A stretch of DNA of 64,000 nucleotides from Methanococcus aeolicus Nankai-3 (lineage in GTDB: Archaea > AGJL01 > Methanococci > Methanococcales > Methanococcaceae), in contig NC_009635.1 in the NCBI RefSeq assembly GCF_000017185.1, positions 312,563 through 376,562 of the forward strand. Direction: 5' to 3'. Positions 11,368 through 15,252 of the stretch are shown here, piece after piece (the stretch's first letter is position 1; each line of letters opens with the position of its first letter). The translations under genes were made by a program, and so were the position numbers. A model generated the notes under the pieces. It ran no database searches and had not been told where the DNA came from. It worked only from the letters and a program-made list of their open reading frames with translations.

Positions 11368-11610
11368 ATGGATGAGATTGACGCAATAGCAATAAATATG
11401 TTGATAAATGCCCCATTGATGTCAGAGAAAGAAATGAAATATGCAACAAATAGATTGAAAATTATGGCAAAGAAAAAAATATTAAATAAACGAGCAAAGC
11501 GATTTTTGAATAACAAAAACCGTTTAGGTGGTTTTCATCTAACAAATGAAATAAATAATATATTGGATTATTGGGCTGATGAAGCTTATATTATTTCAAT
11601 GAAACTATAA
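11368..11610 (+). CDS. Small hypothetical protein
   Basis: Eighty residues, acidic N-terminus MDEIDAIAINMLINAPLM, no membrane segment and no family I recognise. A good GGTGA lies 5 bases before the ATG, supporting translation. The middle (NKRAKRFLNNKNRLGGF) is encoded by a hairpin-rich stretch near 11495-11545 (AAAACC/GGTTTT arms), like the other in-frame hairpin insertions here; the flanking parts would join into a smaller helical protein. It precedes the mod operon operators by 30 bases, but a functional link is not shown. Confidence 0.6.
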   Translation: MDEIDAIAINMLINAPLMSEKEMKYATNRLKIMAKKKILNKRAKRFLNNKNRLGGFHLTNEINNILDYWADEAYIISMKL

Positions 11611-11640
11611 TTACCGAAAACTTTATATATTTGCAATACA

Positions 11641-11690
11641 TAGGAAATAATATTCCTATTAATATAATTTCATAAGGAAATATATTTCCT
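11641..11690. promoter_or_regulatory. Two dyad operators upstream of the mod operon
   Basis: TAGGAAATAATATTCCTA (11641-11658) and AGGAAATATATTTCCT (11675-11690) are two inverted repeats sharing GGAAAT-ATTTCC/ATTCC half sites, centred about 33 bases apart (roughly three DNA turns). They lie just before modA (ATG 11709). I infer a metal- or oxyanion-responsive repressor site; no regulator gene is in the window. Confidence 0.6.
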
Positions 11691-11708: not shown

Positions 11709-12539
11709 ATGAACAATATAAAATTATCCATCATATTATCAACATTACTCCTTTCGAGCAGCATTATTTTTTCAGGGTGTATAGATAGTCCACAAACTAT
11801 AAAAATAGATAAATTTGAAGATTTGGGGAATAAAGGCGTAAGTATATCAATAGGCAATCCCGAGCATGTTCCCGCAGGAAAGTATGCCATGAAAATTTTA
11901 GATAATCTAAAAAAATCAAACCCTGAGTTCGCAGACAATATAACAAAAAATATTGTTTCAAAAGAAGTTAATGTTAGGGCAGTTCTAGACAAAGTTGTTT
12001 CAAAAGAAGTGGATGCAGGATTTGTTTATAGGACTGATGCATTCATGGAAAAGGATAAATTAAATATTATCAAAATCCCGGACGATGTTAGTGTAACTCC
12101 CGAATATCCAATTTCAGTATTGAAAGATAGTGACAATAAAAAATCATCAGAAGAATTTGTGAAATTTATTCTTTCAAAAGATGGTCAAGATATACTGTCA
12201 AAATATGGATTTATAAGCCCTGTGGAAAACCCAAAACCCTATGAAGTCAGTGGCATTAATGATGAAATTGTAGTTTATGCCGCAGCATCATTAACTGATG
12301 CATTTAATGAAATTGCAGACGAATTCGAGAAAAAAACAGGATGTAATGTAAAACTATCATTTGCAAGCTCTGGGTCATTAAGGCAGAAGATAGAAGGTGG
12401 CGCAGTAGGTGGGACCAATGGAGCCGATGTATTTGCCTCAGCAAGTTTAAAACATATGGACATACTTAAAAATGAAGAATTTATAGGGAATTATTCAATA
12501 TTTGCAAAAAACGAGATGGTAGTAATTACCCCAAAATAA
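11709..12539 (+). CDS. modA: Molybdate/tungstate-binding lipoprotein, apparently circularly permuted ModA
   Basis: The 276-residue product has a lipoprotein signal with lipobox FSGC (Cys24), so it should sit on the outer face of the membrane. Family order is reversed. Residues about 29-171 (KFEDLGNKGVSISIGNPEHV ... SKYGFISP) match the usual C-terminal part of ModA. After a linker (PVENPKPYEVSGIND), residues 186-276 (EIVVYAAASLTDAFNEIADE, FASSGSLRQKI, ADVFASASLKHM ... FAKNEMVVITPK) match the usual N-terminal part. The oxyanion-contacting serines of AASL and SSGSL are present. The break falls at the inter-lobe hinge, and the total length is that of one normal ModA. GGADVF is interrupted by VGGTN. 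It is followed by modB and modC, and the frame is intact, so I think it works. Confidence 0.85.
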   Translation: MNNIKLSIILSTLLLSSSIIFSGCIDSPQTIKIDKFEDLGNKGVSISIGNPEHVPAGKYAMKILDNLKKSNPEFADNITKNIVSKEVNVRAVLDKVVSKEVDAGFVYRTDAFMEKDKLNIIKIPDDVSVTPEYPISVLKDSDNKKSSEEFVKFILSKDGQDILSKYGFISPVENPKPYEVSGINDEIVVYAAASLTDAFNEIADEFEKKTGCNVKLSFASSGSLRQKIEGGAVGGTNGADVFASASLKHMDILKNEEFIGNYSIFAKNEMVVITPK

Positions 12540-12567: not shown

Positions 12568-13392
12568 ATGAAGGCAATATTATTTAAATTACTAATGGTA
12601 TTTAGCATCACAGGATTTGTTGTGTTGATTATCCTACCACTTTTGGCATTATTAATCAACATATTTTCAAATCCATCATTTCAATCTATCGATTATAATT
12701 TAGTACTAAACCCATTAATTTTAAGTATTACAACATCTCTTGCATCAACAATAGTTTCGCTTTTTATAGGTATTCCTCTAGCATATATTCTTACATATAA
12801 AAAATTTCCATTAAAAGATATGTTGGATACTATTGTTAATCTTCCCCTTGTAGTGCCCCCAACTGTTGCAGGATATTTACTCCTGATAACTTTTGGAAGA
12901 TATGGGTTGATAGGACACCCACTGCATTTATTGGGAATTACAATAATGTTCACGACATTTGCAATTATTGTTGCCCAAACATTTGTTGCATTGCCATTTA
13001 TGATAAGGGGAGTTAGGACATCCCTTCAAGAGATTTCGCCTTCATTAGTTGATGCTGCAAAAACTCTTGGGGCAGATGAATATGAAATATTTAAGGAAAT
13101 AATTATACCAATGTCAAAACCGGGCATTATTTCAGGAACAATATTAACCTATGCCAGAGCAGTGGGCGAATTTGGGGCCACTGTAATGGTATGTGGGCTT
13201 TTGGAAACATTACCAATAGCAATATATAATAATGCATTAAGTGGAAATAGGGAGGTTGCAAATATATTGGCCTTAATTTTAATTATAATGTCTTTTGGAA
13301 CCTTAACTTTATTCAAAAGAATTAGCTTTGAAAAATCGATGAAATCATATCGTTATTTAAAAAGATTATTAATTAAAATTATTCCATGGTAG
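12568..13392 (+). CDS. modB: Molybdate/tungstate ABC transporter permease
   Basis: A 274-residue membrane protein with about six transmembrane segments (first at VFSITGFVVLIILPLLALLI). It carries the EAA loop that docks the ATPase: DAAKTLGADEYEIFKEIIIP at about 169-188. The VGEFGATVMVCG segment is typical of ModB/WtpB/CysT permeases. It begins 28 bases after modA with GTGGT upstream and is transcribed with it. Confidence 0.93.
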   Translation: MKAILFKLLMVFSITGFVVLIILPLLALLINIFSNPSFQSIDYNLVLNPLILSITTSLASTIVSLFIGIPLAYILTYKKFPLKDMLDTIVNLPLVVPPTVAGYLLLITFGRYGLIGHPLHLLGITIMFTTFAIIVAQTFVALPFMIRGVRTSLQEISPSLVDAAKTLGADEYEIFKEIIIPMSKPGIISGTILTYARAVGEFGATVMVCGLLETLPIAIYNNALSGNREVANILALILIIMSFGTLTLFKRISFEKSMKSYRYLKRLLIKIIPW

Positions 13393-13532: not shown

Positions 13533-13541
13533 ATGAGGCGT

Positions 13542-14693
13542 ATGATAAAGATAGATAATGTATCTAAAAAAATGGGGAACCAGAATATTCTAAATAATGT
13601 TAGCTTACAGGTGCATGACGGCGAGATAATGGTTTTGTTAGGCCCTAGCGGTTGTGGAAAAACCACCCTTCTTAAAATTATTGCCGGATTATTAAAACAA
13701 GACTCCGGGAATATAATTATTAACAATAATATAATTAATGACTTTCCGTCCAAAGAAAGAAATATGGGATTTGTATTTCAAGATTATGCATTATTTCCCC
13801 ATAAAAATGTTTATGATAATATAGCATTTGGCTTAAAATTAAGAAAAGTTCCCGAAAATGAAATTAATATTAAGATAAATGAAATAATGGAAATTCTTGA
13901 AATTGACCATTTAAAAGATAAAAAAATTCCACAGTTGAGCGGAGGTCAGAAACAGAGGGTTGCACTAGCAAGGGCTTTGGTTATAGACCCTGATGTTTTA
14001 TTACTTGATGAACCATTAAGTGCTTTGGACCCCATTTTAAGAGAAAAGCTAAGGGAAGAGTTAAAAACCATACTTAACACCCTTGGAGTTACGGGAATTT
14101 ATGTAACTCATGATTTAACCGAGGCCATGATATTGGGGGATAATGTCGCAGTAATGAATAATGGAATAATACAACAAATTGAAAAGCCTGATGATATATT
14201 TTATCATCCAAAAAATGAATTTGTTGCAGAGTTTGTTGGTGTAAAGAATATATTAAAAGGAAGAATATTCGAATATGATGGGGAGGATGTAATAATAACC
14301 ATAAATAATCCCAATTTAAAAGCTCCATTTAATATAAAGGTTAATAATTACCCAATATTTGAAAGAAAAAAAGAAAAAGAAATATCTTTGTGCATACATC
14401 CCGAAGAAATAAAATTAAATAATGTAAAGAATGGGGAAAATAATATAAAAGGAAAAATTATAAATATATTTCCAAATGGCTCAGTATTAAAGGTGGTGTT
14501 GGATATTGGCGGTATGGAACTTTATGCAATAACAACAAGAAATTTATTAAAATATGGCATAAATGATGAAGTCTGGATTTCATTTAATAAAGGAGCTCCC
14601 CACCCAATGTGCGGTAAAAGATGTAAAACACCAAATCGAGAATTATTGTGTAAATGTAAACCACCACAAGAAAGTTTAGATATTGCACAATAA
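13542..14693 (+). CDS. modC: Molybdate/tungstate ABC transporter ATP-binding protein
   Basis: About 383 residues. Walker A GPSGCGKTTL (about 36-45), Q loop VFQDYALFPH, signature LSGGQKQR, Walker B VLLLDEPLSALD and switch His in YVTHDLTEA are all present. The C-terminal 130 residues form a TOBE-like regulatory part ending in a Cys-rich tail (CGKRCKTP, LLCKCKPP), which could sense metal or redox state. I start at the second ATG, since GAGGCGT precedes it; an ATG nine bases upstream is possible. Last gene of the mod operon. Confidence 0.92.
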   Translation: MIKIDNVSKKMGNQNILNNVSLQVHDGEIMVLLGPSGCGKTTLLKIIAGLLKQDSGNIIINNNIINDFPSKERNMGFVFQDYALFPHKNVYDNIAFGLKLRKVPENEINIKINEIMEILEIDHLKDKKIPQLSGGQKQRVALARALVIDPDVLLLDEPLSALDPILREKLREELKTILNTLGVTGIYVTHDLTEAMILGDNVAVMNNGIIQQIEKPDDIFYHPKNEFVAEFVGVKNILKGRIFEYDGEDVIITINNPNLKAPFNIKVNNYPIFERKKEKEISLCIHPEEIKLNNVKNGENNIKGKIINIFPNGSVLKVVLDIGGMELYAITTRNLLKYGINDEVWISFNKGAPHPMCGKRCKTPNRELLCKCKPPQESLDIAQ

Positions 14694-14760: not shown

Positions 14761-15252
14761 ATGTCCGTTGTAACAATTAAAAAAGAGATAGACGAAATTA
14801 AAAAGAAATTGATAGAAAAAGATGCAAATAGTTTAATGGTAATAGGTTGTGGTAAATGTGCAAAAAGCAGTAAAACAGGAGGTCCAGAGGAAGTAATAGA
14901 CATAAAAGAAATATTGTCAAAAAATGGATTTAAAATATTTAAAAATGAAAACTTGCCCGAGGTTTTGGACGAAGGGTTATGCAGATATAGCGATGTTCAA
15001 AAATTATCAGAGGATATCATAGATGGGTCCTTTGATTCCATACTTGTGCTTGCATGCGGAGCTGGATTAAAGGCTATTTCCGATAACTTTAATGATAAAA
15101 CAATTATTTCAGGAGTAAATACAATAGGCATAGGTATAAAAGAAAATCTTGTATGTCTTGCATGCGGAGATTGTAGTTTTGATAATGGCATATGTAATAG
15201 ATTATCAATAATTGAAGAAATAAACAATCACCTGAAAAAATCATATAATTAA
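14761..15252 (+). CDS. Cysteine-rich protein of the MTHFR C-terminal (MetV-like) family
   Basis: 163 residues with cysteine groups GCGKCAKS (about 29-36), CRYSD, LACGAG and LACGDCSFDNGIC (about 139-151). The pattern and the GCGKC...GGPEEV start resemble the zinc/Fe-S domain seen at the C-terminus of methylene-tetrahydrofolate reductases and in MetV, the small subunit of acetogen MTHFR complexes. Methanogens use other reductases for this step, so the role here is unknown; cluster binding is an inference from the cysteines. It stands alone after modC (67 bases). Confidence 0.6.
   Translation: MSVVTIKKEIDEIKKKLIEKDANSLMVIGCGKCAKSSKTGGPEEVIDIKEILSKNGFKIFKNENLPEVLDEGLCRYSDVQKLSEDIIDGSFDSILVLACGAGLKAISDNFNDKTIISGVNTIGIGIKENLVCLACGDCSFDNGICNRLSIIEEINNHLKKSYN

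Follow-up and report, generated by a model that had tools for sequence, protein, structure and literature searches.

Within a window of 64,000 nucleotides of the Methanococcus aeolicus Nankai-3 genome (NC_009635.1, positions 312,563 to 376,562), one open reading frame (ORF) encodes a molybdate-binding protein whose two halves stand in the reverse of the usual order, which raises the question of whether such a chain can be a working ModA and what its importer would serve. Our analysis indicates that this protein, modA-cp, is very probably a functional, lipid-anchored ModA that was circularly permuted once, long ago, and that belongs to a modABC importer mainly serving nitrogenase in methanococci.

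modA-cp is a circularly permuted molybdate-binding lipoprotein of 276 residues (11709..12539; the gene with its parts and upstream elements, modB, modC and the gene after modC are all on the + strand). It begins with a lipoprotein signal peptide (11709..11780) with lipobox Cys24 (..IIFSGC24), a cysteine that is invariant in an 18-row alignment of permuted proteins. Residues 29-171 (KFEDLG...SKYGFISP; 11793..12221) match what is normally the second part of ModA (TIGR01256 87-217), and residues 185-276 (EIVVYAAASL...VVITPK; 12261..12536) match what is normally the first (TIGR01256 1-82). Between these two profile matches lies a linker of 13 residues, 172-184 (12222..12260), at the junction of the ancestral C- and N-termini; it is NPKPY-like in Methanococcaceae copies and variable elsewhere. 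The whole protein passes the NCBIfam ModA model TIGR01256 with 163.6 bits (cutoff 62.5). Searched alone, the first block aligned over residues 34-167 with profile positions 87-217 (E 6.8e-28) and the second over residues 192-276 with positions 1-82 (E 1.6e-19). A collinear N-to-C match to ModA was absent, and by chain order modA-cp is a permutant of the family. Profile positions 1-217 are covered once, with the break between 82 and 87, so that no part of ModA is absent or doubled. These results agree with a preliminary description of the locus, which had put the total at one ModA length and had placed the two blocks, the lipobox and the order swap where the ORF and the separate profile matches now fix them to the residue. 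Solved ModA structures such as 7tav, 4kd5, 8zj6 and 1amf likewise aligned with both halves of modA-cp in two swapped-order stretches.

We searched for the same order by scanning 84,980 species genomes with a family alignment as query and then applying an explicit order test to each ORF; with the modA-cp protein alone as query the scan gave no match, and the family alignment recovered the family. By this test the ModA-like ORFs examined were overwhelmingly of normal order, and permuted calls are therefore not something that the test itself produces. The permuted order was found in 19 loci: seven Methanococcaceae genomes, three other archaeal metagenome-assembled genomes (MAGs; L083-L085) and nine bacterial MAGs, the bacterial count being a lower bound because it rests on only the best 80 of 511 loci. 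The six further Methanococcaceae genomes, three from the same genus (G005, G007, G008) and three from sister genera (G012, G014, G016), each carry a long collinear match to modA-cp at 57-79% identity. Bacterial copies come from MAGs of Desulfotomaculum and Desulforudis (L078, L079, L081, L082), from a Thermodesulfovibrionales MAG (L080) and from four Desulfobacterota/Tharpellota-type MAGs (L086-L089), these last four being very divergent (31-36% identity) and on a long branch. Across 394 archaeal genomes from 248 genera, permuted modA occurred only in the seven Methanococcaceae and in the three genomes apparently behind L083-L085.

An AlphaFold2 model of modA-cp gave a single fold with a mean pLDDT of 93.1, in which the signal peptide region alone was uncertain. 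The input alignment combined 17 permuted proteins with, for each half, 54 normal-order ModA rows, all translated without change, and the halves aligned cleanly; with only 7 close rows the pLDDT was 40. A predicted structure that does not close into one fold had been named in advance as an outcome that would speak against permutation, and the modelled chain does close, with a pTM of 0.85 for which between-half contact information comes mainly from the 17 permuted rows, as the remaining rows hold the halves separately. Searching the PDB with Foldseek returned PstS2 (4h1x) first and OpuAC second, a ranking that keeps chain order and so cannot judge whether the model equals ModA. In the model, the new C-terminus is formed by strand 270-275. 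In type II binding proteins, the equivalent strand follows directly on the first inter-lobe crossing. Neither crossing should therefore be lost, and the two new ends are expected in lobe II, next to the hinge. The lipid anchor would have shifted from lobe I to lobe II.

In E. coli ModA, the oxyanion is contacted by Ser12, Ser39, Ala125, Val152 and Tyr170 (structure 3r26; PMC8895017). All five contacts are kept in modA-cp: A56, V89 and Y107, the equivalents of Ala125, Val152 and Tyr170, are in the first block, and S194 and S221, the equivalents of Ser12 and Ser39, are in the second, which bears out the earlier claim that both binding serine loops are retained. S221, A56, V89 and Y107 are invariant in 18 of 18 aligned permuted copies. 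We infer that modA-cp binds molybdate and takes part in its transport. In three Methanothermococcus copies (L009, L010, L011), Gly takes the place of the Ser12 equivalent (YGGAGM), and in the four bacterial copies L086-L089 Val does (AAAVF), which suggests altered oxyanion contacts in these proteins.

The genes around modA-cp form the intact modABC operon that the preliminary description had recognized. In the window, modB (12568..13392) encodes a molybdate ABC permease of the NifC-like/ModB type, which passes the ModB model TIGR02141 (202.8 bits, cutoff 182.6) and falls just below the cut-off of the NifC-like ABC porter model TIGR01581 (209.0 versus 210.3). It is followed by modC (13533..14693), an ATPase (ABC_tran, TOBE_2) with a TOBE domain and a Cys-rich C-terminal tail. 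In all permuted loci, modB begins no more than 33 bp downstream of the permuted modA and modC comes next.

Upstream of modA-cp we found an archaeal BRE/TATA-like promoter element (ACCGAAAACTTTATATA; 11613..11629), with a similar element in G014 and G016, and two GGAA-N6-TTCC sites resembling NrpR operators, site 1 at 11643..11656 and site 2 (GGAAATATATTTCC) 33 bp from it at 11676..11689. We take GGAA-N6-TTCC to be the consensus of NrpR nitrogen operators. Such a site lies no more than about 90 bp from the start in seven of seven Methanococcaceae permuted modA copies. The 33-bp spacing in the window recurs in G012 and before nifH of the M. aeolicus genome, where the listed GGAA-N6-TTCC sites include no other 33-bp pair, and one identical 14-mer is common to the window pair and the pair upstream of nifH. 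The nitrogen repressor NrpR probably binds these paired sites. The two normal-order modA paralogues of this genome have no GGAA-N6-TTCC within 250 bp. Since such sites do accompany several modA genes of normal order in other methanococci, they are a mark of nitrogen-linked molybdate operons rather than of the permutation.

Gene neighbourhoods provide a second link to nitrogen fixation. The permuted operon adjoins nif genes in eight loci: in G005, G007, G008 and G012 its immediate neighbour is the nif cluster (nifH, I1, I2, D, K, X, E, N), and in L078, L079, L081 and L082 it lies beside nif-type genes or homocitrate synthase. Among 36 genomes of the phylum, the permuted operon was present in 7 of 17 with nif (nifD) and in none of 19 without (Fisher p 0.0023, uncorrected for kinship). 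The ten other nif-positive genomes lack the permuted form, and normal-order ModA is the alternative there. In M. aeolicus itself, a normal-order modA with transporter genes comes straight after the nif cluster (G000:C1:1476324-1488906, L171), and the genome thus holds two candidate nitrogen-linked molybdate importers that differ in the order of their ModA.

Of the other ways to read these data, the one that survives best is that modA-cp has a different ligand, mainly tungstate or another oxyanion, and that the link to nif is incidental. Methanogens also need tungsten, and some copies have lost the Ser12 equivalent, but the window copy keeps the molybdate contacts. WtpA shares its fold class and a first-half motif with modA-cp, yet with the two WtpA models (TIGR03730, NF003196) modA-cp scored far below the cut-offs, at 50.4 bits for one (cut-off 355) and 35.3 for the other (cut-off 242.75). 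Genomic context also points both ways: the G016 operon comes after fwd and moeA genes and the operons of the archaeal MAGs are not adjacent to nif, whereas within the phylum the operon is confined to nif-positive genomes and has operator pairs of the nif type. On balance we regard another ligand as unlikely.

We favour a permuted molybdate importer that works as follows. The ancestral C- and N-termini would have been fused through the short linker, and the loop that follows the strand making the first inter-lobe crossing would have been cut open to give new ends, leaving a chain predicted to start with lobe II and to finish with the first-crossing strand. Both lobes would still build one cleft with the usual five molybdate contacts, and modA-cp would pass molybdate on to ModB and ModC, the importer whose genes come next. 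The main role of the operon in methanococci would be to serve nitrogenase, as it adjoins nif genes or has paired GGAA-N6-TTCC operators of the nifH type, and it would have travelled with nif genes into Bacillota and Nitrospirota.

To place the permuted proteins among ModA sequences, we cut them at the linker, re-ordered them to the normal order and combined them with normal-order ModA in trees. After removal of very long rogue rows, the permuted set formed one clade (support 97/95, 99% of bootstrap trees); in the tree that kept these rows, it formed one side of a branch with a support of 22/96. The rogue rows were dropped once the first result was known, and we give both supports for this reason. 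The ModB proteins of the permuted operons also group together (78/90). One clade of re-ordered sequences argues for one old permutation, probably with later horizontal spread, and the permutant was probably derived from a normal-order ModA in a single event. Bacillota and Nitrospirota copies are placed among Methanococcaceae copies, although some inner branches are weak, and this placement, taken with the nif neighbours, suggests that subsurface bacteria acquired these genes from methanogens. Overall, the arrangement is supported as an old, horizontally spread family linked to nif.

Natural permutation has precedents among binding proteins. When S. pneumoniae PstS2, with a query sequence identical to PDB 4h1x, was compared with the PstS structures 4q8r, 1twy and 4gd5, it aligned in two swapped-order stretches and is thus a natural permutant; a published statement of its permutation was not found in the open-licence literature. 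PstS2 resembles modA-cp in being of single length and in having the second lobe first, but it belongs to a phosphate family, comes from a Gram-positive organism and has very low identity to modA-cp. It also has about 25 residues beyond the equivalent of the ModA cut, which makes it a parallel case rather than a shared event. OpuAC, ProX, ModA and CysB have been reported as permutation-related structures (the CPSARST 'CP family', PMC2395249). As with modA-cp, OpuAC and ProX represent natural permutation between related two-lobe binding proteins; however, the relations among OpuAC, ProX and ModA are structural, at less than 24% identity and across functions, whereas modA-cp is a permutation within one functional family with clear sequence identity and a single origin. 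The preliminary description had supposed natural permutants of periplasmic binding proteins to be rare and this one to be undescribed. The first part needs qualifying in view of these precedents, and the second stands, as we found no published permuted molybdate-binding protein in the open-licence literature.

The similar cut in PstS2 shows that such a break can recur in a related family, and repeated, independent permutation of ModA at one and the same hinge loop would also accommodate the divergence of L086-L089 and the 22/96 support of the first tree. Against this, the cut points are equivalent among the permuted copies, the permuted set is one clade once the rogue rows are removed, and the partner ModB proteins cluster as well, so we consider repeated origins quite improbable. 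Circular permutation is usually explained by an in-frame duplication whose outer parts are then lost, a plausible route to modA-cp that would fit its single-length product. No duplication intermediate was found in the permuted modA lineage; tandem pairs of normal-order modA were seen only in unrelated bacteria (L099, L115).

Two further readings fare worse. The permuted gene could be a decaying, non-functional relic, and the G014 copy (L008:1423-1582) has a frameshift between the lipobox and the first block, from either a mutation or an assembly error in this draft assembly; but the ORF is intact in every other copy, about 37 residues are invariant, binding-site positions among them, and the family spans two domains of life with its operon intact, which makes decay very hard to credit. 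Nothing was found in favour of an assembly or sequencing artefact that scrambled a normal modA in the M. aeolicus record, which is one complete contig, and this reading is ruled out for practical purposes: the same order, cut points and operon recur in separate assemblies at 18 other loci (the single-contig genomes G005, G012 and G016 among them), so that neither a normal-order modA at this place in relatives nor a rearranged assembly, the outcomes named beforehand as telling against the permutation, was encountered.

modA-cp combines the hallmarks of ModA (TIGR01256; E. coli 1AMF), namely full profile coverage, the same binding residues, a lipoprotein signal and a modABC operon, with reversed halves, ends predicted beside the inter-lobe hinge, a 13-residue linker and an anchor ahead of lobe II. 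Natural permutants that stem from one event, are kept across two domains and have close unpermuted relatives are uncommon. With permuted and normal-order ModA in the one M. aeolicus genome, it can be tested directly how chain order affects folding, the closing of the lobes, anchoring and the hand-over to the permease. One possibility, which we hold only tentatively and think doubtful, is that the permutation is an adaptation in which the lobe II anchor and the ends at the hinge alter lobe dynamics or docking to ModB, and that it was selected and transferred as a unit; if so, this would be a distinct molybdate importer for nitrogen fixation, exchanged between archaea and bacteria. The family also offers a case of a nif-linked molybdate importer that seemingly passed from methanogens to subsurface bacteria, and of an intact family member that order-sensitive annotation can hide.

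Several genes and features beside the permuted modA also recur. An 80-aa ORF ('INAPLMSEKEM'; window 11368-11610) lies upstream of it, with a partial counterpart at the same place in G016 (L036:6996-7244) that overlaps the promoter there. The nif-type permuted operons (window 14600-14690, L035-L040, L081, L082) share a Cys-rich ModC tail (HPxCGKxC...CKC), which the archaeal-MAG and Desulfobacterota-type operons either lack or have in another form; of the normal-order ModC proteins, those examined have at most 3 Cys in the last 40 residues. After modC, the window encodes a Cys-rich protein of 163 aa (14761..15252) with no Pfam or NCBIfam match, whose homologues occupy the same place in L035, L036, L039 and L040; in Methanococcaceae permuted operons this protein has 153-164 aa and conserved Cys motifs (L035:9358-9852, L039:3534-3998, L040:11371-11832). 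In the three archaeal MAGs, the position directly 3' of modC is taken by a Tfx-like helix-turn-helix gene (L083:4413-4820, L084:4289-4696, L085:4384-4791), which may be a molybdate-responsive regulator.
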